A DNA stretch of 64,000 bases from NCBI GenBank assembly GCA_963556145.1, contig OY744465.1:310001-374000 (forward strand). Reading direction: 5' to 3'. Made by a program: the position numbers and the translations under genes. Below, piece after piece: positions 4,790 to 61,427 of the stretch (positions are counted from its first letter, which is position 1; every line of letters starts with the position of its first letter). Origin of the DNA: Hygrocybe punicea (lineage: Eukaryota > Basidiomycota > Agaricomycetes > Agaricales > Hygrophoraceae). Under the pieces are notes generated by a model, which saw only the letters and a list, made by a program, of their open reading frames with translations, was not told where the DNA came from and ran no database searches.

Positions 4790-4959
4790 ATGTAAAGTGG
4801 ATTAACTGTACATGTATACATACTAGTATGAACAAATGATGAAAGGACTACTAGTATTTGCTGTACTCGTTCAGACAACCTGGGGGGATTGAGACTTATA
4901 TCGATCTGGTGAATGAGTGGAAGTAAGCACACCTTACAGCATATCTTTTCCACAAGACA

Positions 4960-15992: not shown

Positions 15993-16676
15993 ATCATGGA
16001 TCCCTCCTCAGATTTCCAAATGAATTTAGTCAAGTATTTGGAAAGTACACATGTTGGTGAATTTCTTACTGGAACTCAGGATCAAGTACTCAAAAACATC
16101 AATAAGGCCTCTCAGTTAGAAAGTTATATAGATCCAACACAGGCTTTACCTGAAGCACCTCCTAAGCTTTGTGCTACAATGTGTGGGAGTTGTCAACTAT
16201 GTTGTGATTGGAGCTTATGGCAGGCTAACTATGAGACAGTGGTAGATGATCTTTTGGCAAAATCCAACATACATCATTGTTCTAGCAACATAAATAAAGA
16301 TGGTTCTAAAAATAAAACACGTCAATATGTTGGGTGCTTGGATAACAAGTGGGGAAAATGTAAAGCAAGGTTCCCACATCCTGTATTTATGCAAACAGAA
16401 GTAGACACTGAAACTGGTGCCCTTAACATGCAAAAGACTGAGCCTATGATTAACACAGTGACTCCTCTTCTTACTTACTTGATTCGCTCTAATACAGATG
16501 TAACATCCCTAAAATCAGGAACTGCAATCAAAGGAGTTATTCTTTATGTATCTGACTACATTACCAAATTTTCTTTGAAAACACATGTTATATTTGACAC
16601 TATTCGATCAATGTTTCAAAAGAATAGTGAGATGATTGGTGGTAGTGAAACTCAAAAGGAGAAAGGATGAAAACTC
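15993..16676 (+). pseudogene. Helitron Rep C-terminal part with catalytic-tyrosine region
   Basis: This continues the same protein after the TAA. MDPSSDFQ is followed by a Cys-rich stretch (CGSCQLCCDW), then GVILYVSDYITKF, which corresponds to the Rep motif with paired tyrosines that forms the covalent DNA link. A TGA at 16668-16670 ends the open frame, but coding clearly resumes seven bases later (MTKIVNNLSAKMEIG). Expected residue at the stop is Arg, so this is again compatible with CGA to TGA. Confidence 0.82.
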
Positions 16677-37347: not shown

Positions 37348-38718
37348 CTCTACTGGCCGGAGAAATATATGTCCACATATTACCCTTCAGTGTCCAACTG
37401 AGAAACTGCTCACAGTCGCGGAGGAGAGAGGAAGGGAGCCTATCCTCGCGATGAAGTTCGAAAATCCGATCGAAGGTCGATAGTTCTAATGCGTAGCGGC
37501 ATAGTCGGTCACTGTCATCGCGTCGGAAGCATTTAAAGCAGTGTGTAGGAGAACGCGGACAGGAACGAGAACGAGAACGACCTCGAGAGGGAAAGGGGGC
37601 GATCGGAAGGGACGGGAGGGGAGCAGGGGTATTCAACCAGGTATCGAAGTCTCCTTCTAGGGGAATGTAGAAGGTAGAAGGTGGCAGAGAAGAAGGAGAG
37701 GGAGGAGAGGGAAAGACTAGGTGAGCGGTAGCGACGAACTCAGCAAAAGTGTCATCATTGTCCACGCATGACTCGATGTAGTCTTCGTCTCCGTTGGCGA
37801 TCTCCATATCTTCTAACATATCTAGCTCCTCGGTTACGCATCCATCGTTGATACGGAGTGACAGGGGGCGTGAGGAGGAAATTTCCATTGCAGGCCTGAA
37901 CACATCGGTATAAGACCTCATTGTCTGCGAAGCCGAGGGGACGGGTGAAATTATGATGCCAGAATTCGCCAGGGAGGGCGACCTTGATACAGTGGTGAGG
38001 GAAATGAAGGTCGAGAGTGGACTGGAAAGAGGCCAAGAGATTGATGATATAAATGACTTTACGATAGCTCCAAGGAAGGAAAAAGGCGCGTTGGAGCAAA
38101 TGTTGGACATATTGGAGATGTGCGGCACTAGGGGCAGCTGAATGGAAGATGCGAAGGAAAACGCATGAATCCCACTGGGCTAACACAAAGAAAAGAGGTG
38201 GACGGATGGGCCAAGCGGAAGGATCTTGCCAAAGATGTTCGGGTGGCCAATCGTATTCACGATCAGTGGCACGGTACATATACCGTGGGATGACCAGCCG
38301 AGGAGGGGTGGGACGAGGATCGTCATTGAGACAGTCAAGGTGAATAGAGAACTGGAAGCGACGATATTTGGCAAGGATACGCCGATGTAGAGACATCTAT
38401 ATCTCTGGGTACGTATTCACTCATTTTACTATATTTCCTATTTGTTCTATTCGTATGTAGTGGCTGTTGTAAATAGTCACAAACAAAAAAGAGTTTTGGG
38501 TTTTTACCCCACTGACAACGGACTTACACAACGAATCCACGCCTACCCAGGCAGCGTTCACCACACCGAGAATGGTGAAGGGGTAAGCCCAGGTCAAGGT
38601 GACGAAAGTGAGGAACGATGTTGTGTGCACGGATCGAAATGATGGGCAGAAGGCAAAAGAGCGAAGAAGACGGAAAAAAGATGTCAGAGTTTATATAGGA
38701 AATTGGTAATGACATCAT
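37340..38718 (-). pseudogene. gypsy1 extra ORF downstream of pol, split by a solo LTR and a frameshift
   Basis: The first ATG (38716-38718) overlaps the pol stop as ATGA. The first 51 codons (to LGLPLHHSR) lead into the solo LTR at 38386-38565. Removing it joins in frame to RILAKYRRFQFSIHLDCLN. A shift near 37910 then moves coding to the frame with ELDMLEDMEIANGDEDY and the C-terminal SRDCEQ-like region (LPSSLLRDCEQFLSWTLKG), which stops with TGA inside the 3' LTR. A TATATAAAC box lies at about 38690. Total about 400 residues, an acidic middle and an Arg/Ser-rich segment; no transmembrane helix is obvious. I do not recognise the family. Confidence 0.55.
38386..38565 (-). mobile_element. Solo LTR of the LTR-182 family inside gypsy1
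   Basis: About 180 bp, inverted relative to the copies at 44722 and 61428: TGTAGAGACATCTATATCTC to CGTTCACCACA on the plus strand. CCGA flanks both sides (38382-38385 and 38566-38569), a clean 4-bp target duplication. It postdates gypsy1, whose own LTRs are only about 1% apart. Confidence 0.88.
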
Positions 38719-41486
38719 GTGGTGTTTCTTCGATCTTCATATTCTAGAATTGCATCACGTGCATGGCGCAAATTGGAAAGAGGTTCCCAAGTATTTTCAT
38801 CGGCGGAGTAGCCTTTCCATTTCACAAGGTACTCCTTCTTGCGGCGGCGATAACGATGATCGATGACGGTCTCAACTTCGTATTCCTCATGTTCGTCAAT
38901 GATGTCGGGAGGAGGACGTAAGTTGTCATCTGTCACAGGAGGATGTAACTGTTCGTCAACAATAGCCGGTCGCAATAGTCCTGTAGGGCGTGAACGTAGT
39001 ATCTTAGTACGTTGACAATCAGGACAGGAGGCAATAAAATTAGAAACATCTCGATGAAGTGATTCCCAGACATAATCGTGAGAGATAAGGTCGCATGTCT
39101 TATCTATTCCAGGATGCCCAGCATGAGGTGGTGAATGAGCCGAACGAATAATCTCATTGCGCAGAGAAACAACCTCAGGCACAACTATATGTTCTCTAGC
39201 ATCGCGGACCAATCCATCTATGAGGGACCATCGGGAAGAGGAATCGGAGATTTTAGACGAGATGTAAGGTGGCAATGGGGATGGGAAACGAAGTCGATTA
39301 AGGAATCTAGGAGAGGATAAATTAATGATCGCATTGATGAAGTGAGATTCCGAAAGTAGAGCTCTATCCAAGTTATCGGGACCTTCAGGGAAATAATCGG
39401 GGTGGCGAGATAAGCCATCAGCACGGTTACGTGTTCCAGGGATATGTTCTATACAGAAATCGAAGCGACTGAGAAATTCGGACCATCTAGCTTGGCGATG
39501 AGAGAGGGAGCAATTTGTCATAAAGTACTTGAGGGCTTGATTGTCGGATCTAATGACAATGGTATGATTAGCTCCTTTGAGTAGATGACGCCAGTGTGAT
39601 AGCGATTTAACGATAGCTAGAAGTTCTTGATCGGGAGTCGAATAGTTTCGTTCTGCAGGAGATAGTAAAGCGGAATAATAACCAATAGGATGAAGCTTAT
39701 CATCATGTTTTTGCATAAGGACAGCACCGATTGCGAAGCCGGAGGAGTCGGTTTCGAGGATATAAGGAAGATCGAGTCGGGGAGCTTTAAGGATGGGTTC
39801 GGAAGTAATGGATTGTTTAAGGGAATTGAATGCAAATTGACAGTTGGAAGTCCAAGCGAATTTATTATCTTTTCTTGTAAGATTGTGAAGAGGTCGGGCG
39901 ATAGAAGAGAAATCTTTGATGAATCTGCGCCAAAAGTTCATGGTGCCAAGGAATGATTGAACATCTCGAACATGTTTAGGAATGGACCAATCAGAAATAG
40001 AATGTATCTTGGCAGGATTAATAGCGATTTTGCCATGAGAAATAATTTGACCAAGATACTTAACGGAGTCTTTTTCAAATTGACATTTGACGGGTTTGCA
40101 AGAGAGATTATTCTTGCGCATGATGTCGAGTACGCGGTGAGTATTCGTTTCAAGTTCTTCATGGGTATCTCCGAGAATAATGATGTCGTCCATGTAAATG
40201 AATACACATCCGGAGGTAAGAACATCATGAAAGCGAATATTCATCATTCGTTGAAAGGTGACGGGGGCATTGCAGAGTCCAAAGAACATAATGGTAGGTT
40301 CAAAGAGACCACGATTCGTGATAAAGGCAGCCTTCCATACGTCTTCTTCCTTAATCCGAATATTATTGTATCCCCAGCGAATATCGATAACGGTAAAATG
40401 TTTCGCTGTTTGGAATTTTGGTTGTTGGAGGATTTCGGAAAGAAGTGAGGGAGGATAATGATCGTGAATGGTGTGGGCATTAAGATATTGATAATCCTGA
40501 ACAGGACGGAGTCCAGGATCTGAACCTAGAGCGTTAATTTCTTCACCTTTGTTCACAAAGAAAAAGGGGGCGGCTTGGGGGGATTTTGAGGGGCGAATAC
40601 GTCCTGTCGAAAGATTTTCGTCCAAGAATTTATCGAGTTCGACTTGCTCTCGAGGAGATAGCGAATACAACTTGCCCTGTTGGGGTTTGAAGGAATCTTT
40701 GAGGTTGATGGCGTGATCGAATTCGGAATGGGGAGGAAGTTGGTCGAAATGTTGTTTGAGAAAAACATCTGAATAGTTCCAATACTTCTCCGGTATAAAT
40801 GGCTTCATATCTTCTTCAACAGTAGTAGGATGAGAGGTATCTCCGAGGGAAATGCCGTTAATGGTCTGTAGAATTTGATCTCGGGAAAAGGAAAAGTAAT
40901 TCGAATTGGAGGTGAGATCAAGTGAAGCGATATATTCTTCATAAGGATCCGATTGCGAGTCGATCCTGTTTTCATACATCGAATCCACGGTCAGGGATGT
41001 CGAGGGAATTCCGGTTTGAAAGATTTCAAGGGTTTTCTCTATAACACCGGTGTATGGATTGTGTTTTCGAATCCAAGGAAAGCCGAGAATGACGTCGAAA
41101 TCGCCTAGCGAGGAAATCTCAAGTGTAAGGCATTCATGGTAAGATGGTGGCGCATAAAGAATGACGTCGCAGGATTTATCAATAGGCCCATCTCGGTTAG
41201 GCGTCCTATCGATATTACGTATGGGTATTGGTTCTTCCAAATACGAGAAGGAAAGGGAGTTGTTTTCCACGAAATGGCAGTTGATGAAACAGCCAGAAGC
41301 GCCAGTATCAATTAAAATGTGAACAGGGAATTGTTCTCCAGTATCAGTGGCTTCGAGCCATAGATTGACGATTAACGTTTCGTCGGAAGAGCATAGAGAA
41401 CCAAGGCAATGATAGAATTGTTCGTCATTATGTTTACAAAGATCCAGAGTAGTCGAAGAATCCGAATCTGAAATATCTAATATCCC
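38715..41486 (-). CDS. pol: gypsy1 pol: protease, RT, RNase H, truncated integrase, chromodomain
   Basis: An open frame runs from just after the gag stop to TGA at 38715-38717. Aspartic protease active site ILIDTGASGCF lies near 41300. RT contains the catalytic FIYMDDIIILG motif, and RNase H starts LETDSSGFAIGAVLMQ. The integrase zinc site reads HAGHPGIDKT...CPDC. Directly after RSRPTGLLRP, where the D-D-E core should follow, the frame jumps to the linker EYEVETVIDHRYRRRKKEY and the chromodomain LVKWKGYSADENTWEP. The frame is -1 to gag and has no ATG before the protease, so expression would need frameshifting or a lost base. Without the integrase core, new copies would depend on an integrase from another element. 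Confidence 0.92.
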   Translation of the reverse strand, partial: GILDISDSDSSTTLDLCKHNDEQFYHCLGSLCSSDETLIVNLWLEATDTGEQFPVHILIDTGASGCFINCHFVENNSLSFSYLEEPIPIRNIDRTPNRDGPIDKSCDVILYAPPSYHECLTLEISSLGDFDVILGFPWIRKHNPYTGVIEKTLEIFQTGIPSTSLTVDSMYENRIDSQSDPYEEYIASLDLTSNSNYFSFSRDQILQTINGISLGDTSHPTTVEEDMKPFIPEKYWNYSDVFLKQHFDQLPPHSEFDHAINLKDSFKPQQGKLYSLSPREQVELDKFLDENLSTGRIRPSKSPQAAPFFFVNKGEEINALGSDPGLRPVQDYQYLNAHTIHDHYPPSLLSEILQQPKFQTAKHFTVIDIRWGYNNIRIKEEDVWKAAFITNRGLFEPTIMFFGLCNAPVTFQRMMNIRFHDVLTSGCVFIYMDDIIILGDTHEELETNTHRVLDIMRKNNLSCKPVKCQFEKDSVKYLGQIISHGKIAINPAKIHSISDWSIPKHVRDVQSFLGTMNFWRRFIKDFSSIARPLHNLTRKDNKFAWTSNCQFAFNSLKQSITSEPILKAPRLDLPYILETDSSGFAIGAVLMQKHDDKLHPIGYYSALLSPAERNYSTPDQELLAIVKSLSHWRHLLKGANHTIVIRSDNQALKYFMTNCSLSHRQARWSEFLSRFDFCIEHIPGTRNRADGLSRHPDYFPEGPDNLDRALLSESHFINAIINLSSPRFLNRLRFPSPLPPYISSKISDSSSRWSLIDGLVRDAREHIVVPEVVSLRNEIIRSAHSPPHAGHPGIDKTCDLISHDYVWESLHRDVSNFIASCPDCQRTKILRSRPTGLLRPAIVDEQLHPPVTDDNLRPPPDIIDEHEEYEVETVIDHRYRRRKKEYLVKWKGYSADENTWEPLSNLRHARDAILEYEDRRNTT

Positions 41487-42790
41487 TCATGTACAAGTTT
41501 GTTAGAGAGGGCCGTCTTTTCTGCAGAGCTCATGTTAGACACACCCAATGTGACATAAATATTGTCCTTGTCCTTTGCCGAAGAAGTTCCCGAAGTTCCT
41601 TGTTCTCCATCCCTGGTTACTGCTCGAATATTGTGAGAACGTTTGCCTCGACCATGAGAGGAGCGGTTGTTGTTGCGTGACGATGAAGCGGTGGTGGAGG
41701 AAGATGCACGAGTAGGACAATTGTTAGCCCAATGTTCTTTTGAGCCACAAACAATACATTGTCCTGCAGCTTTCCTCTGTGCGGCAATAACAGGGTCAAC
41801 CGATTCCGATTTAATACGTGTAGAAGTCGAAGACGAAGTGGTGGGATTATGGGTTTTCGAAGCAGTAGAGGGAGAGGCGGAAGCTTTAGGAGTTTCCTTT
41901 ATTTGACCAGTAGACTTCGAGGAAGGAGAAATGGTTGCGAGATATTCGCGATATTGTTGATCGAATCGACTAGCGTATTGTTTCCATTCTCGAAGGGTGG
42001 TAGGCATATTTGCAAGGGCGAATATTTTCGAAATGATCACTTGATTTAATCCATCTTTAAAACATCCAATGAGGGCTTGATCGTTAAAGCCAGTGAGTGT
42101 CTCGTATTCTTCGAAATGAACGATATATTCATCGACGGTAGCCTTGCCTTGTTTAACCTCTTTGATCTTCAAGTGAGCCATTGCTTCTCGATCAACATTT
42201 CCAAAGGCGGAACGAATATCCGCTTCAAAGTTTGCCCAAGTGTAGGCGGCGAAAGCGAGACTCTGAACCTTGTTTTCAGCCCAAGGTAGAGCACTACCAG
42301 ACTTCATGTACGATAGAAACCCAAAAGAACCTTTTGTTCGTCTGCGTATGCTTGTGCACAAAGGAAGACACTGCATTGGTGAAGGAACTTTTCGACGTTT
42401 TCAGGTTTACCATTGAAGTCATCTGGTTTCGCGATTTTCACGGTAAGGGCAGCGGGAGGTGGAGGTGGAGGAGGTGGAGGAGGAACAGCAGCAGCATGAA
42501 GAGCAGCAATTTCGGCGTTGGCGGTTGCAAGGTCATTGTCGAGAGTATTGACGCGATGGAGTAGTTGTTGAAGTTGTGCTTGGAGATCAGCCGTAGGTGA
42601 TGGAGACGGGGGAGGTGGGGTTAATGGAGAAGGAGGGGAAGGAGGTGAGGGCGGAGGTGGAGGTGGTTGTCTCCGAAAGGGTTGGAAGCGAGAAGTGGAT
42701 GGAAGAGGATCTGGAAAGCGAGGAGAAGAAGAGCCAAAGCCTGCAGACGTAGCAGCGGATTGGGATCGAGTGCGAGGAGGTATGTTGGGC
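41477..42790 (-). pseudogene. gypsy1 gag, one frameshift
   Basis: The N-terminal half runs from near 42790 through a Pro-rich segment to IAKPDDFNGKPENVEKFLHQ, a typical gag start of the matrix/capsid-like domain. A frameshift near 42330 then moves coding into the 299-codon frame (SYMKSGSALPWAENK through FALANMPTTLREWKQYASRF). A CCHC zinc knuckle, CIVCGSKEHWANNC, is followed by a basic Ser/Arg-rich tail. The frame ends with TAG at 41477-41479. Gag coats the RNA and forms the particle. The start codon is not certain. Confidence 0.85.
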
Positions 42791-46639: not shown

Positions 46640-47303
46640 GGAAACGGTGGAATACATCGAAAACAGCGTATGTTTGGGGCTGGCGTGGGTTTCTGGGGAC
46701 GGTAAGGGCTCAGACGGTGGGGGCATGTCACGGATGGCCTCTGGGGATGACGGCAAGGGTGGAGACGTGGACGGCTGGCGACACAAGGGTGAAACGAGGG
46801 CAGATACGTTGGGACAGGTCGAAAATGGCATCCGTTGAGTGTCGGCACGGTTTTCTGGAGACGGCGCGGGCTCAAATGGTAGTGGCGTGCCGATACTTGC
46901 TGCCAGGGACGACGGAGAGGGCGCAGAGGGGGTCGGCGGGCGAGTCGAGATGGAAACGGGGGCGGAGGCATCGATACGCGTGTCATCCTCGCGTTGGAGG
47001 AGGTGGACGCGTTTTCCTGGTGACGGCTTGGGGTCAAACGGCGGGGACGCGTGATGGATCACTGCTGGGGACGACGGCGAGGGCGTAGGCGCAAGTGGTG
47101 GGCAAAACGAGACGGAAACGGGGGCGGATGCGTTGATACGCGTTGAAGATGGCGTCTGTTGGGTGTAGGTGGGGCTTTCTGGTGACGGCGCGGGGACAGA
47201 CGGTGGGAGCGTGTCATGGTTCACTTCTGGGGACGACGGCGTGGCTGTAGACGTGAACGTGGGGCAAAACGGGGGCAAAACGGAGGCAGACACGCTGAGA
47301 CAC
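46640..47303 (-). repeat. About 160-bp tandem repeat inside a minus-strand Pro/Ser-rich frame
   Basis: Four diverged units, each giving on the minus strand SASV/SAPV, then TPSPSSP-like, then a PPFxPxPSP block of about 53 residues. The open frame (46502-47293) runs through them but carries no other domain. The repeat resumes at 49633-49868, on the other side of the TRIM-like element, so that element inserted into the array. The array belongs to the LTR-X interior. Confidence 0.7.
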
Positions 47304-47469
47304 TGCAGCAGTAGCTGCTAGCCCCTAGGACCCTGGAGACCCTTAGCTGGTAGATTCCCTTTCCTGTAGTAGCTTAGTCATCCATCTTTGGGTTTTCCTC
47401 AGCTTTCCCCTCCCAGCCGCGGCTCCCTCTGAGCTCTTCCCCTGAGGTCCGGAGAGTCATTCTCCAACA

Positions 47470-47502
47470 TGGTGATGAGAAGGATTCGAGCCACGCGACT
47501 GT
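47470..47502 (+). promoter_or_regulatory. Extended primer-binding site of the TRIM-like element
   Basis: Starting at the LTR end, TGGTGATGAGAAGG then ATTCGAGCC. Its complement ends in CCA and contains GGCTCGAATCC, which looks like a T arm, then a 7-base acceptor strand and discriminator A. The match to tRNA structure therefore extends far beyond the usual 12-18 bases. The tRNA identity was not determined. Confidence 0.65.
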
Positions 47503-49409: not shown

Positions 49410-49632
49410 GATTTTCAGAGGCAGGAGATGTGTGCGAGGGCGCACACCATTGTGGAGGGGGGTACCTGCAGCAGTAGCTGCTAGCCCCTAGGACCCTGGA
49501 GACCCTTAGCTGGTAGATTCCCTTTCCTGTAGTAGCTTAGTCATCCATCTTTGGGTTTTCCTCAGCTTTCCCCTCCCAGCCACGGCTCCCTCTGAGCTCT
49601 TCCCCTGAGGTCCGGAAAGTCGTTCTCCGACG

Positions 49633-49868
49633 TGTGGAACATGGCCTTGGGCGCGCGGGGACGTGTTTTCCTGGGGATGGCGTGAGTGCAGACGGTGGGC
49701 ATAGGTCGTGACTTGCATCTGGGGATGACGGCGAGTCCATAGATGTGAACGGGGGGTGATTTGAGCCAGAAACGAGGGGGGACGCGTCGATATGGGTGTT
49801 AACGTTGCGTTGGCATGCGCGGACGCGTTTTCCTGCACGGGAACCACGGGGACGGCGAGGACGGGCGT
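49633..49868 (-). repeat. Continuation of the LTR-X tandem repeat
   Basis: Further units of the array at 46640-47303, recognised by GACGTGTTTTCCTGGGGAT and CTGGGGATGACGGCG, between the TRIM-like element and the gypsy2 left LTR. Confidence 0.6.
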
Positions 49869-50662
49869 TGAAAAGGCGAGGTCAGGGTGGCTGCGGAATA
49901 GTAATCCTAAGCCTGTGGGGGTCAGCGTAGAAGTGACTAGGAATAGTCTAACAAGCTTCAGTAAAATGATAGGATATAAATGGTAAGAAGCCGCCGAGTA
50001 AACTACTGAAATCTATTGAGACCGGTCGAAGCCAACGAAGCCGACGATGTCGGGTACGGCAGGTCGGGTGTCGGGTGACGAGGGATGTAGAGATAAAGGC
50101 GGTAGAACGACGGGGAGAGCGTCGAGGAATCCGACGAGCAATGTGTGCGATGGATTTTACTGAGAGACTAATTCTCAGAGAGAGGAAATGGGGGAACTGG
50201 TTTCTTATTCAGAGACGGCGCTTGGGCACCGTTTTTATACTACAAATTTCTGTACCTAGATTCGGACGAGAGTCCTCGGCCGATGAGAGAAAACAAAGGA
50301 GAATAAAAATGGAAAAGTAGGAAGGGGGTTGTGAGGCGACCATGACAGGGAAAATGGGTGGAAGATATAAAAACCGTAAAAGATGTAATATACTTTACTA
50401 TATCTCCATAAGGGAGACACTAGGCGCGAATAAGGCAAGTCCGACGTCGGGATTCCAGTCCGATGAGATCTATCTTTGATATTTGAAGTTCTGTGAGTTT
50501 AGGAGATGGACCGACCAGGTACGTGAGCGGCCGTGCTAGTCGGTATGCATCGGGTTGCGTCGGGTTGCGTCAGGTTTGAGCGTAGATTGTTAGAGACGTT
50601 GGGTTTGAGCGGATTTGCGAGATATCGATGTTACGGCCTCAGAGGGTCGAGGACCCTCTACA
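49869..50662 (-). repeat. gypsy2 3' LTR (794 bp)
   Basis: Left copy. Minus-strand sequence starts TGTAGAGGGTCCTCGACCCT; its other end reads TTTTCA where the right copy has TTTACA. It lies directly upstream of the antisense gene and may supply that gene's promoter. Confidence 0.93.
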
Positions 50663-50832
50663 TCTCCTTGGGTCTTCTAATAGAGACCATCCATGGTCGA
50701 GAATATGGGGTCTCCAAATGCGGGTCGCGAATGTGGCCAATCACGTGAGCGGCCAAACAATGGCAAAGTAAAGAAAATAAAAAAAATCTCTTTGTTGATC
50801 CGACCTTTCCTCTACACCATCACACGCCCACC
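50663..50832 (+). promoter_or_regulatory. Leader region of the antisense gene
   Basis: 170 bp between the 3' LTR and the ATG. It contains AATAAAAAAAATCTC and then a pyrimidine-rich run (CTTTCCTCTACACCATC) directly before the start, the kind of initiator region common in basidiomycete genes. No TATA box seen. Confidence 0.4.
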
Positions 50833-52037
50833 ATGTCCCAAACCTACGACAACTTCCTCGCCTTCGTCAAAAGCATCGAACCTGATGTCCAGGCGGACTA
50901 CGAAGAGGCCGTTAACGCAGTCACCGTGTTTCACAGCGACGACCTCGTTACGATGGTAGACGGCAATGAGGGGATGGCCCAGCGATGGGTAAGCGGCCAC
51001 AAGAAAGCGCTAGTGAGTTTCCCGATTGATTACGCGTGTCCTAAGATAGCTCATGTCGTCCCACTAGCGTGCTTATCATGGAATCGTCGCAGAACTCCGA
51101 GCTAGTGGTACGGGGCCAGTAACGCCACCGCTATGGGCCGACTGCCAATCATACGCTAACGATGTCGAAGAGTGGCTGAAAGAAGCGGTGGACCGAGAGA
51201 GGCAGGAAAAGGAAGAAGCTAGATGGTGGGCGGACGAGGAAGTCGCTACGCAGGAAGAGGAGGCCAGACGGTTGGCAGAGGCAAAGGCACGAGCGGAGGC
51301 GGAGAAAAGGCGAAAGGCGGCAGAGGAAAGGTGGGAGCGGCTTAGAATAGAACAGCACAAGCAGCACTGGACTCAAGAAGCAGACCAGGTTGAAAAGGAT
51401 GGAGCCACGTATCGGCGGCAGCTCAGCGAGGAACGGCGAGCTGAAGAAAACGCGTCGGTCGCGGGTGAACCAGGGACTGGGTCGATTCTGGAAGGCGAAG
51501 TCGCAGTTGAGCCAGAGGAAGGCCCCGTCGACCCGGCACCAGAGACACCGGCCGATGTAGAAGATGTAGATATGCCGGGCGTAGAGATCGGAGATTTGGC
51601 TGGTACGACGGTGAGTTCCTGTGTTGGTTCATTTGTTCTTTAGTCACTGATCCTGGTAACAGTTCACCGGGCTGTTTCCTCTACAAGCCTGCACCAACTG
51701 CGTCAAGGCTCAAGAGGCGTGTCGAGGCATCACGGGCTACGTGTGCGAACGATGCCGGAGGCTGAAGAAAAGATGTACTAACGCTACACACCGGACGGGT
51801 GGGGGTCGGCGCAAGGTGGATACCGGAAAGGGCAAAGAGGTCGCGGTTGGCATGAGGAAGCCATTGTCGTTCACGACAAAGCCGATCCGCAGTAGGCCTG
51901 CCCGGGCCTCAACGAGCAAACCGCGGGTCGAGGATGTGGAATCGGTTGAGGACAATGACTTGACGAGGAAGAGTCGGAGGAAGAGCGGCCGACGAAAAGG
52001 CTTAGGGCGGCCTCAGCAGCAAACCCGTTTGTTTTGA
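50833..52037 (+). CDS. Antisense cargo gene of gypsy2: coiled-coil Zn2Cys6 protein
   Basis: Three exons (50833-51012, 51068-51610, 51663-52037) with 55- and 52-bp introns bounded by GTGAGT and AG, all in phase 0, give 365 residues. The ATG is in CCCACCATGT. Residues 1-100 start MSQTYDNFLAFVKSIEPDV and look globular. Residues 101-170 are a charged helix (EAKARAEAEKRRKAAEERW). Cys251, 254, 261, 269, 272 and 279 fit C-x2-C-x6-C-x7-C-x2-C-x6-C, exactly the fungal binuclear zinc cluster. A basic Arg/Lys-rich tail follows. Zn2Cys6 proteins bind DNA as transcription regulators. Lying antisense, its introns survive in the element's RNA. The role in the element is unknown. Confidence 0.8.
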
Positions 52038-52039
52038 CA

Positions 52040-52228
52040 ATGGAAAATTACGAGCAGGTGTCGGCGCGGCTGGCGGTCCTTACGGAGGAGCTGGGAGCCC
52101 TGGGCACCAACATCAACCATCACCTCGTCCACTTCGTTCAAGAGTTCCAGCGGCTCCGCATCGATCTCGAACGGTCGACCTCAAGGTTGGCGATGTTGAA
52201 GCGGGACTACGAGACCGGCCGCCTGTAA
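52040..52228 (+). CDS. Small helical ORF following the antisense Zn2Cys6 gene
   Basis: 62 codons, MENYEQVSARLAVLTEELGA onward, a probable coiled coil (LVHFVQEFQRLRIDLERST). Its ATG lies 2 bases after the TGA of the preceding frame, in a different frame. It may be a true C-terminal part cut off by an indel, or a second product of the same transcript. No intron that would join them was found. Confidence 0.5.
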   Translation: MENYEQVSARLAVLTEELGALGTNINHHLVHFVQEFQRLRIDLERSTSRLAMLKRDYETGRL

Positions 52229-52435
52229 AATAGAAAAAAATAACGAGCCCGTTGTATATATATAAAAAAATATATCGTGTACATAAAAGACGTGTCAGCT
52301 TGTTCACCCAGCTAAGGAAAGCCGATCGGCTCCCAAAGACATAGGACTATTCGCATCATTCGACATATCGTTTAGAAAACTAAGAGGAACTAAATGAAAT
52401 GGGGGTATAACGTGGACAGAATATAAATGAAATGC

Positions 52436-53319
52436 TTAATCGTCGTCGGGTGAGGAGTCTATGGAGGGCGGGTACGTCGGATCATCAAGATCGTTTGAAT
52501 CGGTATCGTCGGCATCGGGGTATTGTAAGAAATCGTCCAACGGTATCGATATTTTTGAGCGGGCGTGGTAGGGTATGACTCGGAAAGCGGCAAATCGGGA
52601 TCTAGAAACCGCACCGTCGAGTTCAGCGAGTATGTAGGATCCACCTTCCGTTTTCCTGACGACAACCATGGGTCCAAAGTACCGCGGCTTAGCTTTACGA
52701 TCGAGAGACATTTCGATACGTGAATTTCGGACGAGAACAAGGTTACCGGGTTCGAAGTTGAAAACTTTGATCGTGTTGGCATATTTCTGCTCAAATTGCC
52801 GGGCGGACGCGAGCTGAAATTTGGTAAGCTTTTCTTTGACCCGATCGAGGTCGGCTTCTCGTTTACAAAGTTGTCGGGCGCGGATGACTATGAGGTTGGT
52901 CGTAGACATCGTATCTTGCGTTGGAACCATGTACGTAGCTTTGGCAAAATCAAATGGAAAAAGCGGTTCTACTCCGTGTGTGATGTAGTAGGACGAGTAT
53001 CCGAGGCTTTTGTGTGTAGTGACCCGTTCGGCCCAAAATACGGAGTGGGTTACAGTATGCCATTTCTTTTCATCTCCGTCACAACTTTTCATAATGGCCT
53101 CCCGGACATCAAGATGTTGACGCTCAACGGGTCCGTTCGCTTGTGAGTTATAGGGCGAAATGCGGATGTGCCGGATACCGTAGCGGGAGGTGAGATAGTC
53201 GAGCGCTTCTACGAACGGCTTGCCGTTGTCAGTAACGATTTCTTCGAGAGCGCCCCAACGGCATAAGATATCCTCGAACAAGAACGTGCCGATGGTGGAG
53301 CCGGTCTCGCGGCGTAACA
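52436..53319 (-). pseudogene. pol: gypsy2 integrase C-terminal half
   Basis: 294 codons in the frame after the deletion. The second core Asp lies in EEIVTDNGKPF and the Glu in NGPVERQHLDVRE, so the D-D-E triad is present across the frameshift. A GPF-type segment (KPRYFGPMVVVRKTEGGSY) is followed by an acidic tail with no chromodomain. The 3' end converges on the antisense gene, 207 bp away. Confidence 0.87.
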
Positions 53320-54723
53320 TGCGAACTCAGGGTAGGCGGACAGGGAGCAACGGGCTTGGACAATGTATCGATAGCCGCCGGATTGTGGCATAAACATTGT
53401 GTCGACATACGCTTTACGAAATAGTGAGGCCAGTGTAGCGACGGTGGGCGGAATGTGGTGATAACGCATTTGGCGTACTTGGCACTGATGACAAGACTGG
53501 ACGTACCACTTAACGTTGTGGTCGAGGTGCGGCCACCAGAAACGATTGAGCAGCCAGGTGCGGACGGAAAATATGCCTTTATGGCCAAGAGAGTCGTGAG
53601 CGTCTTTGAGTAAATGAAGCCAGCAGTCGGGCGGTATGACGAGTTTGTGTTTTCCGTGACGGTCTTTACGCCAAAGCTTGTTATCGGTGACGAAGAATTC
53701 AAGGGCGTATCGTAAGAACAGATGGTATTCTTCATCCGTGAAGTTCGCGGGTCGGGTTAGATCTCGTAACCAGGTCTCGACGAGGGCAAGACGAGCGTCG
53801 GCCGCGCGGGCTTTATCGGATCGCAGTATGTCAGAAACGGCTTCCTGATTTGTGTAGACGAGGACGGCGGGTAACTCGTGGAGTCGGTCGGCTGTGGCAC
53901 AGCAGCGGCTGCATACGGCAATCGGCTTAGACAGCGTGGGGACGGGTCGGTAGTTAACGACTTCCATAAAAAAACCGTAAGAGTGGTCGAGCCAATCGTC
54001 GGAGTCGTTGATCTCCTTGGGGTCTTCTGCAGCGCGGGGACGTCTGGAGAGTCCGTCAGGTGCACCGTGTGTGGAAGCGGGTACGTGAACGAGTCTAAAA
54101 TCAAATAAGAGCATGCCAGCTATCCATCGGTTGATTGTAGCATTGGGCTGAATGTCGGGGTTGTTGAGCATCCCTTTTATGTACTTCGCATCGACTTCGA
54201 CGGTGAGGTTGCGGACGCTGATAATGAAAATCCGGTAGGTGTGGAGGGCCCTGAAGAGACTGTAAAGCTCGAGCTTGGACTGGGAGTATCGGGCTTTGCG
54301 CTCGTTCCATGATATTGAACCGAATCGATTCGGATAGCGCTTTCCGTCGGCGCGGATTTGCATAAGAACGAAGCCGACTCCAAGAATGGATGAATCGACG
54401 GCGAGAATGACCTCCCATTCACGTGTGTAATCGATAGCGCGCAGCGCTGGCGATGAAATGATGGCATTTTTGAGGTAGTCGACGGCGGTCTCTTCTTCTT
54501 CACCAAATTCGAAGGGTATACCTTTGCGGGTAAGACGGACGAGGGGTCGGGAGTGGAGCGAGAAGTCTTTGATAAAAATACGCAAGACGCCGCAGATACC
54601 GAGAAAGGCGCGAACTTCGGTAAGGTTGGTCGGCAGTGGCCAATCGCGAATCTTCTGTACTTTGGAGTCGTCGGCTACTCTTCCTTCGTATGTGCATCGG
54701 TGGCCAACAACGATGACTGAGGG
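53320..54723 (-). pseudogene. pol: gypsy2 RNase H and integrase N-terminal half
   Basis: From the TGA the frame passes the RT thumb/connection (LRIFIKDFSLHSRPLVRL) into RNase H (ILAVDSSILGVGFVLMQ, SKLELYSLFRALH, VEVDAKYIKGML). Next is the integrase zinc site (HDSLGHKGIFSV...CHQCQ) and the first core Asp in AYVDTMFMP. A one-base deletion near 53320 (EF then MLRRETGSTIG in the next frame) ends it. Confidence 0.87.
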
Positions 54724-55536
54724 TCAACACAACTCGAGTTTCTTGCCGTTAAAGGTACTGCCGACATAGCGGAAATGCTGGATGACGCGGTTGACACCTT
54801 GGAAGTGCTCCCAAATGAAACGTCGAATTGCCGGGTTCTCGGGTATGGTCTCGTAGGTACCGTCGGGTTGCTCGTAATGGGTTGGAGGTCCTTTGACGGG
54901 AATATCGTCCATATACGGAACCGCAAGATGAGGGATTTCATCATGGAGGATGTACGTGGAGTCACCGTGTAGGATCTGCGGGGAATTTGTGTATCCCATA
55001 GCGATCCGCGTAAGTCGAAGCGTTCCGAGTGGAGACTGAAAGGTCATATAGTCCCGAGATGAGGGGTGGACGAGGGGTTGGTCAAAAGAGACGAAGAGGT
55101 CGAAGGAAGCGTAGCAAGAGTGGCTGCCAAAGGCCTCGGCCAAGTGCTCGGTCATGGGTGGTACGGCGGGATCGCGGATAGTGACGGCGTTAAGCAGCTG
55201 TAGATCATGAACAATTCGAAGGGACTTCCCATCCTTTTTCAAAACGCAGAACCAACGGGAGCGGTATGATGAATTCGAGGGTTCATAGGTACCGGCGTTA
55301 ATTTTATCTTTGATGATGCCGATGACTTCGTTAAGGATACCGGGTGGGATTGGGATATTGCGATGGACCCACGGGTCATGCGGTATGGTGGGAATGTGGA
55401 TCGGCGGGAAGTAGTCCGTGTTGAATTGCCCTTTTTCGGATTCGTTCCAGGCAAAAGCGGCTTCTTGCGTTTTGATGATATGGTGGCCAAGTTTCTCTTC
55501 CTCAGGCCAAAGGAAACCATCCGGGTTCATCGGCAT
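54724..55536 (-). pseudogene. pol: gypsy2 reverse transcriptase
   Basis: 270 codons. Recognisable RT blocks are WFCVLKKDGKSLRIVHDLQ, CYASFDLFVSFDQ (first catalytic Asp), TRIAMGYTNSPQ and the catalytic VPYMDDIPVKGP. It ends in KKLELC and an in-frame TGA at 54724-54726. Translation beyond the stop continues the same protein (PSVIVVGHRCTYEGRV, WPLPTNLTEVRAFLGICG). Confidence 0.88.
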
Positions 55537-55545
55537 CGCGTCGTG

Positions 55546-55848
55546 TCATTCCTGGGTATAGCGGGTGCCGGGTGTAAAGTCAGGCGGGTGAGTCGGGAGC
55601 GTGGGTAAGTCGGCTAGCGGGTCGCCGGTGATCTCGCGTATTATCCGGTATTCGTCGGGAAGAGTGGTAGAAATTGGGCGGATACGATCGGCTACCTTCT
55701 TATACTTTTTCTTGGTGACGACTCCTTTTAGGTCCCTGGTAGGGGGGGTGGTATACGAGATATAAGTAGCGTGTTCAGTAGGGGCTTTGTTACAAGTTTT
55801 CGAAGAAGAAGAAATAGGTGACGCGGGAGCGGAGACGGAACAAGACAA
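55546..55848 (-). pseudogene. pol: gypsy2 pol N-terminal fragment, ended by a premature TGA
   Basis: 100 codons leading to YRIIREITGDPLADLP and TPGTRYTQE, then TGA at 55546-55548. The frame simply continues on the other side of the stop with HDAMPMNPDGFLWPEE. In related elements I recall Arg at this point, so a CGA to TGA change is likely. Confidence 0.8.
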
Positions 55849-56087
55849 AGGAAGGGTATCGGTAGTACGTATCTGATTTTATACATCGGTCAACAATGAA
55901 ATGTACTGGGCGGCAGTCTGAGGCTGAGACGAAGAGAAATCTAAATCGATAGAAAAACATAAGTCCTCTTCTAGGGGAAACGGCAAAAGGGAAGCATAGT
56001 TCGTGGTATAGGTGTGGTCGCTTTCGAGTGGCGGCTTCTCATCTCCTGGTGCGTCCTTCCCGAGAGGTATCTCCGGGTCCTCGACTT

Positions 56088-57233
56088 CTAAAAATCCGGC
56101 TTTCCGGTGTCGGACCGCTCTCGTCGGTTCTTTTGGTTGTGCTCAATGGTGGGCAAGGTGACGACGGCGCTGGTGTTTGGATCCGTGATCGTGACTTGTT
56201 GCTCTCCGTTTTTATAATCCTTCGTAAGGGCCTCGGAAAGCGTGAAGAACAGGCGGCCGATGAGGATCTCGTAGGGGGCGTCGTCGACAACTTGGACTTG
56301 GAGGAAAAGATCGACGTCGCCAAAAGTGAATTTTAGGTTGGCGATCCGGCCGAGGGTGTCGTTGTCGCTTTTATTTGCCGACTGCATCCGCATCTTCATA
56401 TTTTGGAGGCCGTAACCGAGTTTTTCCCAGATGTCATGTCGCATGCCGATGATCATAGAGCCGTTGTCGAGGACGCATTCGAATACGAACTTGCCGTTGA
56501 TGAGCGGGTAGACCGCACGAAGAGGGACTGAGTCCCGGCCGACGATGAGTGGGATGTTTTCCTGACAATGTTGGCAGGCGCAGGTAGGGATTTCGGGTGC
56601 GTGGAAATGGAAGACCTCGACGTTGTTACTCTCGGCGGTGACCTTTTTCGAAATGGTGAGGTCCTTCATGTGACGGCGGGCGTCGGAGGACATGGCTAAA
56701 AGTTCTCGTTGCGAAATGCAGACCTGAGAATCGAGCGCGCGGTCGATGATGGATTTGGCGATACCAGGATCTTCGATGGGGGCCTGGTAGTGGTATTGGG
56801 GGTGCGACGCGGGAAGGTTCTGGGGAGTGCGCGGCACGAAGGCGGTCGGCTCGGTCGGCTGCGTGTTCGAAGGGGGGACTATGGTGATCGGCTGCTCGTT
56901 GACAGGTCTGGTAGACGTTTTCTCAGCCGGTTTCGTGACGGGTACGGATGTAGAGGCGGCAGGCGGATTGGGATACGTCTCTCTAGACTTGCCTTTTGCT
57001 TTAGAGGGGTTCTCTACGCCGTTGAATCTAACCCGTTTACGAAGCCGCTGCACTTCGGCTTCCAGAACCTTGATTTGTTCGTTGTCGTTGTCGATGTCGG
57101 ACGTCGTGGACTGAAAGATGTCGGTGTACTTGGTGGTGACCTCAGGTTCATAAGTGGGTACTTCGACGGCGAAGACAAAGTTAGTTTTGACATGAGGCGG
57201 CGGGTCGCGTTGGAATGGTTCTGTGGGGTTGTG
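56088..57233 (-). CDS. gypsy2 gag-protease linker and aspartic protease
   Basis: After the MITE the frame continues AHNPTEPFQRDPPPH, then a short leucine-rich coil (IKVLEAEVQRLRKRVRF) and a Pro/Thr-rich linker. The segment CACQHC may bind zinc. The retropepsin-like domain starts near VFECVLDNGSMIIG, with D-N-G-S in place of the usual D-T/S-G-A, and ends at APYEILIGRLFF, the conserved C-terminal strand. It stops at 56088 after GKPDF. The pol frame begins separately 200 bp further on, so a frameshift or internal start would be needed to make RT. Confidence 0.8.
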   Translation of the reverse strand, partial: HNPTEPFQRDPPPHVKTNFVFAVEVPTYEPEVTTKYTDIFQSTTSDIDNDNEQIKVLEAEVQRLRKRVRFNGVENPSKAKGKSRETYPNPPAASTSVPVTKPAEKTSTRPVNEQPITIVPPSNTQPTEPTAFVPRTPQNLPASHPQYHYQAPIEDPGIAKSIIDRALDSQVCISQRELLAMSSDARRHMKDLTISKKVTAESNNVEVFHFHAPEIPTCACQHCQENIPLIVGRDSVPLRAVYPLINGKFVFECVLDNGSMIIGMRHDIWEKLGYGLQNMKMRMQSANKSDNDTLGRIANLKFTFGDVDLFLQVQVVDDAPYEILIGRLFFTLSEALTKDYKNGEQQVTITDPNTSAVVTLPTIEHNQKNRRERSDTGKPDF

Positions 57234-57241
57234 GGCAGGGG

Positions 57242-58439
57242 TAGTGTTGGGGAAGTTCGGTCTCAGACCGACCCAAACCCGGTTTAGACCGAACCGAAAC
57301 CGCCGGTTTCGGTTTCGGTTTGGGAAATTTCGGCTGAGACCGAACCGTTCAGTCTCCGGTTTGGAGATTTGGCCGCGGGCCGAAACGGTTTCAAACTCAG
57401 TTTGAACCGCAAACCGACAGTCCAAAGTCGGCTACATGGCTGACTTCGAAAGTCACCCAAAGTCACCAACCCCACCAACAACACCCCCGATATACGCCAA
57501 ACGAAGACGATGGAGCACCCGAGGTCGACAAAACGGGCGGCGGGGTACCCCCTGCCGCCCGCGTATGTTTTTTATTTTTATTTATTCGAACTTAACTAAC
57601 GCATTTACAAATTACAGGTTGATGCACCACGGCCACCACCACCACCACCACCACCACCACGACAACGACCACGACAACGGCAACGACAACGGCGACGGTT
57701 ACAACCACCGTCAACGCCACGCCGGACGCGCCCACAGCAACGCCCACGGCCCACCCCCAGCGCCACGCCAAACGCGTTCAAAACGCGCGCCAAACGTACG
57801 TGAATGGGGTGGAGTCAACAAGGTGGAAGAGCAGCAGGGGTGGTGCATCCACCCCGCTCCTTCGTGGTATGTACCTTTATTCATTTTTTCACTGATTTAT
57901 TCGTCCATTATAGAACGCGGCACCGTACCACCACCACCACGCAACACTAACACCACCGAGGAAGGCCAACGCGGGGTCAACCCGGCCGTCGTCGCGTGCA
58001 CAACGCGTATGACGCGTGGGGCACCACCACCACCACCACCACCACCACCGTCACGCGTCCACCGAAAACGGCCAACGCGGTCAACCCACATCGCATGTAC
58101 AACGTGTGTGACGCGTCGGGACACCCATGGAGAAGCCCGCGTGCGGCTCAATGCCGGCGCAGGGTGTGCCAGCACCCCAGCACCCCAATCTCACCTCGCA
58201 AACAGGCTGGCCACGTCAATTGACGTGCGCAGCACTGTTGCGAGGTCAGAATGGTGCAGGGGCACTGAGCACTAGCGGTCCGCGGTTCAGACCGCGTTTG
58301 GACCGAAACCGAACCGATGCAAACCGTTTGCATTGGTTTCGGTCTGGTTTGGGGACTTTGGGTGGAAAACCGGACCATTCGGTTTCCGGTTTGGGCAAAA
58401 AGGCCCCAAACCGGACCAAACCGAACTTCCCCAACACTA
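57242..58439. mobile_element. hAT MITE inserted in gypsy2 gag-protease
   Basis: Perfect 20-bp TIRs (TAGTGTTGGGGAAGTTCGGT) and a perfect 8-bp target duplication GGCAGGGG (57234-57241 and 58440-58447). The subterminal zones are rich in CGGTTT/AAACCG motifs. The 1,198-bp interior has CCACCACCAC and GACAACGAC simple repeats and no transposase. Confidence 0.95.
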
Positions 58440-59648
58440 GGCAGGGGGAGCGCGGTTGCCGGGGTTCTGTGTGTGCCATGCGTCAAAGTGATCCTTCATA
58501 TTTTTGCCAATGATAGCCTTTGGAAGATACATTCCGTTAGGCAATACGATGCGGCCGTGCTCGTTCTTGCGGCATATCCCGTCTCGAGTGTACTGCTCGC
58601 AAATAGGACAATCGCGTATATGATGGAACGGGTCATCGCAAAAGAGGCAGTTGAAATTGGTGAAACCCTGTCCCGCGGTGGTCGGCTCGGCCCTATTTTC
58701 ACACGGCTTTGGGGGGTTGTTACGTTCGGTGAGGGCTTGCGTGAGGACGGCGAGTTGTTGCGAAACGAGACGAAAGAGGTTGGATACGTTAGGTTCGACC
58801 GGTTCTGCTTTAGGAATGACCGGGTCATAGCGAGCGGGTGGCGGGTAGCGGGTGGCAGGTTCTATTGGAGTCGAGTACCAGATGGTGGCAGGCGACGTTG
58901 ACGATAGACGAGAGACGGTGGACGGTTCGGCCATGGTTCCGGCCAGCAGGAAGTGGGCGCAGTTGTGGAAGTCCTGAAAGTCGTAAGGGTCGCTATGGAA
59001 ATGGTTCGGCTTTTGGTACTGCAGACAGGTTTTGATGTCCTTTTTAAGCTCGACATGGAAGCCGTTCTCGTACGCGATGTTGCGTTCTCGGGGAGAGATC
59101 CGACCCTTGTCTAGAAGAAACCCTGAGATCCAGATGAACTCGTGGTAATATTTGCCAAGTTCGGCGTGGGTACGGATACCATAAGCGGTTTGGGTGTGTG
59201 TAAGACAGTCGAGATCCGCCATAGTGTACCGGTGATCGTCTTCCGTGCCCGGGTATAGCACGAGTACGCTCCTTTTGAATGCGGCATAATCGACGCCGGT
59301 CGCGCTAGGTAAACTCGCCCAAAGCTTGTAGTCGCTAAGCGATGCGTAGCGCAGACTATGCTTGATGTGTCCTGCGTCGTCGAGAGCGGCATCGGCAGCA
59401 AGTATCTCGACTTCTTCGAAGAAGCGGTTTAAATTGAGCGGGTTCCCGTCAAAGGTCGGGGCCGTGGAGTGACCGCGAGTGGGCATTTGTCGTGGAGTAA
59501 CATGGGGAGCGGTAACATGGGGAGCGGTCGAAGATCCAGAGGTCGAAGTCATTGTGGGTGGAAGGAGCTGAGATGTCGATGAAGCGGTTGTCGGGTGTAC
59601 GATGAGCGGGTCGGGTAACGTGGACGATGATGGCGTAGGCGAAGACAA
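58437..59648 (-). CDS. gag: gypsy2 gag
   Basis: 403 codons from an in-frame ATG. A Ser/Thr/Pro-rich start is followed by the capsid-like region (APTFDGNPLNLNRFFEEVE, YAAFKRSVLVLYPGTEDDH, FIWISGFLLDKGRISPRER). A CCHC knuckle CLFCDDPFHHIRDC is followed by a second Cys pair (CEQYTRDGIC). The frame ends at TAG, which is the first codon of the inserted MITE. Without the MITE the protein would continue in frame into the protease ORF (RAPPA then HNPTEPFQRD). The true start could lie upstream in the Asp/Ser-rich region before 59648. Confidence 0.85.
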   Translation of the reverse strand: MSSPTPSSSTLPDPLIVHPTTASSTSQLLPPTMTSTSGSSTAPHVTAPHVTPRQMPTRGHSTAPTFDGNPLNLNRFFEEVEILAADAALDDAGHIKHSLRYASLSDYKLWASLPSATGVDYAAFKRSVLVLYPGTEDDHRYTMADLDCLTHTQTAYGIRTHAELGKYYHEFIWISGFLLDKGRISPRERNIAYENGFHVELKKDIKTCLQYQKPNHFHSDPYDFQDFHNCAHFLLAGTMAEPSTVSRLSSTSPATIWYSTPIEPATRYPPPARYDPVIPKAEPVEPNVSNLFRLVSQQLAVLTQALTERNNPPKPCENRAEPTTAGQGFTNFNCLFCDDPFHHIRDCPICEQYTRDGICRKNEHGRIVLPNGMYLPKAIIGKNMKDHFDAWHTQNPGNRAPPA

Positions 59649-60067
59649 AGACGGGGACGATGACGGCGTAGGCGAAGACGATGACGGGGACGATGACGAT
59701 GATGGATTTTTTGATGTCGAGAGTGAAGACGTAGATGGGGGTTCTAACGAGGTCGAAGTCGGGGACGTAGGCGATGCGGGTGTCGAACTGAGATCGGATG
59801 AGTCGGGTGTTATTGTAATAATCGGTATATCGACCGATTCGAGACTGTCGGATGAAAGATATAGGGGGGTGTTTGACCCTGAGATGAGCGGGAGATTGTT
59901 ATGTCGAGCGAGGTGGTCGGGTACTAGCTGGAAGAAGTCGTCATCGATTGTCAGATCGAAGGCGGCTAAAGAGAGTTCTTGTTGAAGAGTTCTTCGAGGA
60001 AGATCTCGACGACGATGGTCAGAGGGAGGGATATGGGAAGAGGAAGCTATTGTGGTGCTAGACTATT

Positions 60068-60084
60068 CCTTGCGGTGGGCTCCA
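60068..60084 (-). promoter_or_regulatory. tRNA-type primer-binding site of gypsy2
   Basis: Minus strand TGGAGCCCACCGCAAGG begins two bases inside the 5' LTR. The same site with two changes (TGGAGCCCACTGCGAGG) lies two bases inside the LTR-X 5' LTR at 61409-61425. Confidence 0.75.
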
Positions 60085-60086
60085 GA

Positions 60087-60880
60087 TGTAAAGGCGAGGT
60101 CGGGGTGGCTGTGGAATAGTAATCCTAAGCCTGTGGGGGTCAGCGTAGAAGTGACTAGGAATAGTCTAACAAGCTTCAGTAAAATGATAGGATATAAATG
60201 GTAAGAAGCCGCCGAGTAAACTACTGAAATCTATTGAGACCGGTCGAAGCTGACGAAGCCGACGATGTCAGGTACGGCGGGTCGGGTGTCGGGTGACGAG
60301 GGACGTAGAGATAAAGGCGGTAGAACGACGGGGAGAGCGTCGAGGAATCCGACGAGCAATGTGTGCGATGGATTTTACTGAGAGACTAATTCTCAGAGAG
60401 AGGAAATGGGGGAACTGGTTTCTTATTCAGAGACGGCGCTTGGGCACCGTTTTTATACTACAAATTTCTGTACCTAGATTCGGACGAGAGTCCTCGGCCG
60501 ATGAGAGAAAACAAAGGAGAATAAAAATGGAAAAGTAGGAAGGGGGTTGTGAGGCGACCATGACAGGGAAAATGGGTGGAAGATATAAAAACCGTAAAAG
60601 ATGTAATATACTTTACTATATCTCCATAAGGGAGACACTAGGCGCGAATAAGGCAAGTCCGACGTCGGGATTCCAGTCCGATGAGATCTATCTTTGATAT
60701 TTGAAGTTCTGTGAGTTTAGGAGATGGACCGACCAGGTACGTGAGCGGCCGTGCTAGTCGGTATGCATCGGGTTGCATCGGGTTGCATCGGGTTTGAGCG
60801 TAGATTGCTAGAGACGTTGGGTTCGAGCGGATTTGCGAGATATCGATGTTACGGCCTCAGAGGGTCGAGGACCCTCTACA
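60087..60880 (-). repeat. gypsy2 5' LTR (794 bp)
   Basis: Right copy, carrying the element's own promoter. The inner 60087 end is separated from the PBS by two bases. Confidence 0.93.
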
Positions 60881-61427
60881 GCGTACCTGGGACTGCACAT
60901 GCAACAGCCGTTGCAATGCGCGCGCTTTCCTTCGACTACCGGGTCTCCATTTTGTGTTCGACACGTGGGTGGCACTCCATGTTGGATGGGCTCGTTGGGG
61001 CCGTTCTTGGGCTTTCCGGGCACGGCTTTTCAAGCGGGATCTGTGGGGCGTCATCTTCCGAGTCCGTTGGTGGTGTTGAAACGCGTGTGGGGGGCAGGAC
61101 TAGTGTCATAAAATGGAAATGCGAAGGGGTGGGCATGTTGAACACCGTGTGACGTGGCCGTGACGCCGTGACAAAAAGGCCAAAAGGCCGAGTGCTGCAG
61201 CCCTGGAGGCACGACTGGTATGAAATAACCATACGTAGGTGTTGGAATCATTGGAAATGGGCCTAGGAGTTGCTGAGCGACTGGAGAGGCTTGAAATGCT
61301 GCCGAATATGGCACACTGTTGGCTATGGCATACTGTTGCTGCCAGAAAGAGGGAAAGGTGCCAAAATGGCAAAGTCAAAGAGAGATAAGTGAAGAAGAGC
61401 TTGACAGTCCTCGCAGTGGGCTCCAGA
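60881..61427 (-). other. Right-hand interior of LTR-X
   Basis: Between gypsy2 and the LTR-X PBS. The minus-strand frame 61051-61314 (MPYSAAFQASPVAQQ, then PTPTYGYFIPVVPPGLQ) looks protein-like and could be the N-terminal part of the LTR-X product. Overlapping frames are shadows. Confidence 0.4.
61409..61425 (-). promoter_or_regulatory. Primer-binding site of LTR-X
   Basis: Fifteen of seventeen bases match the gypsy2 site, and the two-base TC spacer is the same. It shows that 61428-61609 is a 5' LTR on the minus strand. Confidence 0.75.

Follow-up and report, generated by a model that had tools for sequence, protein, structure and literature searches.

The stretch analysed here, 64,000 nt of Hygrocybe punicea contig OY744465.1 (assembly GCA_963556145.1, positions 310,001 to 374,000, forward strand; hereafter the window), contains a long terminal repeat (LTR) retrotransposon that had been predicted to carry an antisense, intron-containing gene for a Zn2Cys6 protein. 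The element is an 11.0-kb Ty3/gypsy retrotransposon on the minus strand (49869-60880). Its LTRs, 794 bp each, align without gaps and with 13 mismatches (98.4% identity), and GCGT flanks both element ends. The assignment to Ty3/gypsy follows from the paired LTRs with target-site repeats and from reverse transcriptase (RT)-RNase H lying ahead of integrase, a gene order also read in the 10-kb loci of other copies. On the pol pieces, Pfam places RNase H and the integrase zinc-binding domain above cut-off and rve below cut-off on one piece; no chromodomain is among the Pfam matches of the integrase pieces.

An antisense gene between integrase and the 3′ LTR

A three-exon gene lies on the plus strand, antisense to gag-pol, in the gap that separates the 3′ LTR from the integrase frame (which ends at 52436); it starts 170 bp past the inner edge of the LTR and ends about 200 bp short of the integrase frame. 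Its site, its exon and intron coordinates (Table 1), its GTGAGT donors and its in-phase junctions are as the original prediction described them. The predicted length stands for the window copy, whose spliced frame translates to 365 amino acids, but not for the family: the window copy is broken, being one base shorter than most of the 40 scored DNA copies, and reads only 365 amino acids because its exon 3 departs from the family frame. Open family members encode 426 or 429 amino acids and end at the counterpart of 52228. Along the window gene, the minus strand is free of frames of 120 or more codons. Ahead of the gene, 26 of the 31 copies that retain the region have CACGTG, and the other five have CATGTG or CACATG.

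Further analysis of the translated gene revealed six cysteines spaced CX2CX6CX7CX2CX6C, all invariant in five divergent copies. This spacing agrees with the fungal Zn2Cys6 pattern, CX2CX6CX5-12CX2CX6-8C. The exon 3 sequences of five divergent copies also share an invariant KRxR stretch after an acidic run. The predicted binuclear zinc cluster is borne out in its spacing and not in its Pfam profile; because Zn_clus (PF00172) falls below cut-off and no zinc-cluster structure was matched by sequence, we call the protein zinc-cluster-like. Zn_clus matches appear in four of five exon 3 sequences at E values up to 10 (best 0.03), and Zn_clus is not listed for the 365-residue window protein in a Pfam scan at E 0.1. 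A single-sequence structure model of exon 3 reached a pLDDT of 58.5, too poor for folds to be compared.

Outside H. punicea, searches at E 0.001 with the 365-residue protein and at E 0.01 with an exon 2 profile gave no relative in collections that we take to be largely prokaryotic and viral and to have little bearing on fungi, and none was confirmed in IMG/VR. An exon 3 profile matched one outside protein, P0001, of 133 amino acids, encoded on a 1.8-kb metagenomic Joint Genome Institute (JGI) contig (E 4.8e-55; 64% identity, 71% of the query covered). Because P0001 starts after the cysteine motif, its support is limited to the C-terminal part of exon 3.

Within the organism's own 92.2-Mb genome the gene is abundant. 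A protein search gave 125 matches, merged by eye into 112 gene loci, and the best 40 of 264 DNA candidates were scored, at 92-100% identity. Among the 133 integrase matches listed, one lies within 6 kb of 62 of the 112 loci and none within that distance of the other 50. All 62 gene-integrase pairs are antisense and convergent, mostly about 1.37 kb apart. Copies for comparison comprised the top DNA matches (L001-L008), loci picked from the protein matches to span the gene forms (L013-L032), and six near-identical integrase places chosen for intact pol (L033-L038) from the 12 that score 644.3 bits. Exons 2 and 3 are present in all 20 loci of 10 kb, and gag/pol lies on the strand opposite the gene in 18; L031 is rearranged, with gag/pol pieces on both strands, and the sole pol match of L030 is that of a nested element. 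All but L027, L028 and L030, 17 of the 20, have a complete or partial related LTR upstream of the gene. Starting from integrase gave the same picture: all six young, pol-intact copies carry the gene, open in five and with one stop in L035. It is fully open in nine of 34 compared copies. Judged from these copies, the antisense gene is maintained and belongs regularly to the element in this genome, and among the copies examined it fits the description of an aORF-3R, an open frame that most members of a family carry antisense to gag-pol, between integrase and 3′ LTR.

Twelve of the integrase matches listed score an identical 644.3 bits; their open frames span 1257 codons in 11 cases and 1356 in the twelfth, and by their scores these places are a very recent burst of the element family. 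L030 was considered as a case of the gene inside a foreign element and rejected, as its gene copy is cut by a nested element with repeats of its own. With the gene set on the plus strand, that element occupies 2783-9997 of the locus beside the gene copy, and its 579-bp repeats are 98% identical.

The introns are kept throughout. GT-AG ends are retained at intron 2 in 34 of 34 copies and at intron 1 in 32 (L027 and L030 are without the exon 1 region), and the 34 include no intron-less copy. The most distant types compared differ by 37-51% in their introns, which nonetheless are of similar length and keep their splice sites. Introns would persist through transposition because reverse transcription copies RNA of the other strand, on which they would go unrecognised; opposite-strand replication is the simplest reading of their retention. 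It follows that an intron-bearing gene can travel on an RNA-copied element if placed on the opposite strand.

We estimated nonsynonymous to synonymous divergence (dN/dS) by NG86/JC, which is rough near saturation; for 2 of 90 gene values dS is undefined. Across ten copies, in pairs with dS above 1, exons 1-2 have dN/dS of 0.17-0.33 and exon 3 of 0.09-0.21, similar to the 0.10-0.52 of integrase, RNase H, RT and gag in eight elements. Frame tests agreed: in 21 tests (seven pairs, three exons each) the annotated frame had the lowest dN/dS in all, with one tie, and its bootstrap upper limit was below 1 in 20. As far as these substitution patterns can tell, the gene is under purifying selection between diverged types. 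In 16 of 16 copy comparisons, C>T or G>A is more frequent at CpG than change of any kind is at other sites, which suggests that the element is methylated and would explain much of the decay of old copies.

The proposals that the introns survive transposition and that this is a maintained cargo gene are both upheld. Homologues antisense beside integrase were found in other gypsy copies, and dN/dS among diverged types is not neutral, so that two of the outcomes that would have told against a cargo gene did not occur.

Separate divergence of the two gene halves

In some elements gag-pol dS is 0.2-0.5 but the gene reaches 1.5-2.3, and exons 1-2 and exon 3 vary separately. Measured from L014, divergence climbs inside the gene in exons 1-2 only for L023 (dS 1.55 for exons 1-2, 0.31 for exon 3, 0.17-0.51 for gag-pol), mainly in exon 3 for L024 (0.46, 1.85 and 0.37-0.49) and in both for L029 (1.56, 2.27 and 0.23-0.50, gag from 52 codons). 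The step at the gene is sharp in L023 and L024 and weaker in L029, with flanks at 0.17-0.31. These steps sit near the zinc cluster, at the beginning of exon 3.

By this pattern, old halves of the antisense gene, still under constraint, seem to be swapped between elements; the compared loci were chosen for gene form, so their counts give no frequency of exchange. Neutral template switching is a possible source. More speculatively, and we think this rather unlikely, the gene may be an exchangeable module of identity or immunity, like the immunity regions of phages, in which diverged, constrained forms are joined near the zinc cluster, a different form would escape the repression or silencing set by residents, and selection would keep several old forms moving between elements. 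Should the separate divergence hold in an unbiased sample, it would indicate an arms race or an immunity-like system within a retrotransposon family.

A candidate regulator of the element's own LTRs

The LTRs hold candidate sites for the protein. TCGGGT occurs five times in each window LTR and six to seven times per LTR in six young copies. It is confined to one strand in 23 of 23 LTRs, and has a 10-bp period near the U3 edge. Per kb it occurs 6.3 times in the 3′ LTR of the window copy, against 1.2 for the internal part of the element and 0.2 for window positions 1-49000. With no word preselected, the commonest hexamer exceeds shuffled sequence (at most 9 of 200 shuffles reach it) in 15 of 23 LTRs. 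The CGG triplet is the usual half-site of zinc-cluster proteins, so binding of the protein at the TCGGGT of the LTR is a natural guess. A scan for promoters and terminators of bacterial type gave nothing above shuffles.

We reasoned that, on the strand opposite gag-pol, this Ty3/gypsy family encodes a regulator of its own, most likely one that is autogenous, binds DNA and acts on the LTR; this is the explanation we favour, with about even confidence. The gene would be transcribed from a promoter of its own between the 3′ LTR and the ATG, and its transcript would be spliced to give a nuclear, zinc-cluster-like protein. That protein might pair through the long charged helix of exon 2, which was judged by eye, and might bind the iterated GTCGGGT, each with a CGG triplet, in the element's LTRs. 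Once bound, it would adjust gag-pol transcription. Feedback restraint is the likeliest sign by analogy with HBZ of human T-cell leukaemia virus (HTLV), a spliced gene product with a bZIP domain whose transcript starts in the 3′ LTR. The likeness to fungal Zn2Cys6 regulators (PF00172) consists in the cysteine spacing and in a basic stretch between cysteines.

Several observations weigh against an autogenous regulator. The case for it is built from sequence. The first of five exon 3 sequences scores 14 bits against a Zn_clus cut-off of 21, and the three matches of a profile search in the PDB are weak and include no zinc cluster. In Gal4-type clusters the basic stretch lies in the first half of the motif; here it lies in the second, and the motif is about 250 residues from the N-terminus. 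On the DNA side, TCGGGT was first chosen after having been seen, the young LTRs are near-copies of one another, and in 8 of 23 LTRs, including the two of the window, the commonest hexamer does not significantly exceed shuffles. In the frame tests stop-bearing codons were removed in the annotated frame only, frame -2 came close behind it, and the tied test, exon 2 of L003/L034, has an upper limit of 1.08. Close decayed pairs have higher dN/dS, namely 0.53 (L025/L027) and 0.60 (L018/L027) for exons 1-2, and 0.76 and 0.59 for L029/L031, as is expected for dead copies. Finally, 25 of the 34 copies are not fully open.

Alternatively, the protein may be an anti-silencing factor that would bind the repeats of its own LTR and relieve host methylation or heterochromatin, as does VANC of the Arabidopsis VANDAL elements, which reportedly binds its own repeats and relieves silencing. 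The CpG changes, which suggest methylation, the repeated sites within the LTR and a gene that diverges more than its element would all suit such a factor; we consider this account unlikely, if plausible. The antisense, convergent arrangement would also allow the transcript, rather than the protein, to act by pairing with gag-pol RNA and feeding or blocking silencing, roles discussed for plant elements in the passages of PMC7264820 drawn on here. Against this, dN/dS well below 1 and the constraint on amino acids, the six cysteines among them, point to a protein; an RNA acting in its place is improbable, and one acting in addition may be envisaged.

We give equally little credence to a protein that aids integration or nuclear entry, for instance in the choice of target chromatin, and leaves transcription alone. 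Such a role would suit the protein's KRxR motif and its basic and acidic stretches, and also the lack of a chromodomain match in the integrase pieces, the window's other gypsy pol having one, whereas a factor meant for packaging would hardly be expected to come from an intron-bearing gene on the opposite strand. Passive capture of a host gene without function for the element could account for the many copies that are not fully open. It is the only rival contradicted by the data here, namely by the selection signal between types and by the single arrangement of every gene-integrase pair, and we hold it to be very improbable. Nor did a host PF00172 gene prove to be the source: none of the 18 PF00172 places of the genome (58 candidates, all scored) coincides, by eye, with a gene locus.

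An antisense accessory gene is of an already known kind; what is new is its fungal, spliced, zinc-cluster-like form with separately diverging halves. Another fungal case is Boty of Botrytis cinerea, with its gene brtn, on which the original work is reportedly that of Zhao et al. in 2011. In the passages of PMC7264820, PMC8365987 and PMC4227169 used here, brtn is an additional, antisense gene, and Boty, like the present element, is a gypsy element of a fungus; the comparison is by description and not by protein sequence. The gag-pol of Boty is described with a CHROMO domain (PMC4227169), unlike the present element, which has no such match. Plant elements have antisense accessory genes in the same place and orientation, between pol and the 3′ LTR, in most copies; their products are nuclear or predicted to bind DNA, an own promoter is reported for Grande, and the function is described as unknown (PMC7264820, PMC11963269, in the parts consulted). 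By those parts, the present gene differs in its fungal host, in a zinc-cluster-like product rather than TRP28 or SMC, in its two separately diverging halves and in its two conserved introns; introns go unmentioned in those parts, and PMC11963269 nowhere uses the word. The same source names HTLV-1 HBZ, an antisense 3′-end gene for a nuclear regulatory protein, as a retroviral parallel (PMC11963269); HBZ is of an unrelated protein type and from a retrovirus, and the present protein is a sequence prediction. These passages report antisense genes by the 3′ LTR in retroviruses, in elements of plants and in one of an ascomycete (PMC7264820, PMC11963269), and our searches of open PMC papers turned up no LTR element with a spliced antisense gene for a zinc-cluster protein. 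With many copies, young open ones among them, a domain of DNA-binding type, a candidate LTR site and a clear selection signal, the question of LTR self-regulation is directly testable here.

Other features of the element and the window

Table 1. Features of the antisense gene and its carrier element, in window positions
Feature	Position	Strand	Basis or remark
GCGT target-site repeat, left	49865..49868		right partner at 60881-60884
3′ LTR of the minus-strand element	49869..50662	-	794 bp; LTR-pair comparison
Three TCGGGT (50050, 50064, 50071), inner LTR cluster	50050..50076	+	word search
10-bp tandem TGCGTCGGGT x3.1 near U3 edge	50546..50576	+	third unit altered in window copy
CCAATCACGTG block, 96 bp ahead of ATG	50737..50747	+	candidate promoter element; putative role
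Exon 1 of antisense gene	50833..51012	+	spliced translation, copy comparison
Intron 1, 55 nt, GTGAGT...TAG	51013..51067	+	copy comparison
Exon 2, charged, probably helical	51068..51610	+	helix judged by eye
Intron 2, 52 nt, GTGAGT...CAG	51611..51662	+	copy comparison
Exon 3	51663..52228	+	window copy shifts frame, stop at 52037; open copies reach position of 52228
Six-cysteine zinc-cluster-like motif	51690..51776	+	spacing, conserved cysteines
Integrase, C-terminal part	52436..53320	-	open reading frame and Pfam (rve below cut-off here)
RNase H and integrase zinc-binding part	53209..54585	-	Pfam
Reverse transcriptase piece	54724..55536	-	label from sequence and position; no Pfam match on piece
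Protease region	56088..57241	-	Pfam DUF4100, weak Asp_protease_2
gag	58440..59648	-	label by position; no Pfam gag match
Primer-binding-site-like TGGAGCCCACCGCAAGG adjoining 5′ LTR	60068..60084	-	read in sequence; putative role
5′ LTR	60087..60880	-	LTR-pair comparison

A 1.2-kb insertion (57242-58439) splits the element between protease and gag and is missing from copy L014. It has perfect 20-bp terminal inverted repeats (TAGTGTTGGGGAAGTTCGGT) and is flanked on both sides by GGCAGGGG; we take it to be hAT-like.

Just outside the element, a 169-bp direct repeat (47303-47471 and 49466-49634) is 97% identical over copies 2.2 kb apart. Four 126-nt units at 162-bp spacing occupy 46690-47301, and a fifth copy, 2.5 kb off at 49668-49793, adjoins the element. 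The second gypsy element (38715-42376, minus strand) has gag (Retrotrans_gag) and a pol with a chromodomain, and no plus-strand frame of 120 codons just downstream of pol. ARAGORN found no tRNA within the window. Elsewhere, Helitron-like frames (14504-19121, plus strand) combine DUF6570 and Helitron_like_N with a PIF1-like helicase, and frames for a NACHT-type ATPase and WD40 repeats (23986-27857, minus strand) mark a NACHT-WD40 gene or its remnant.
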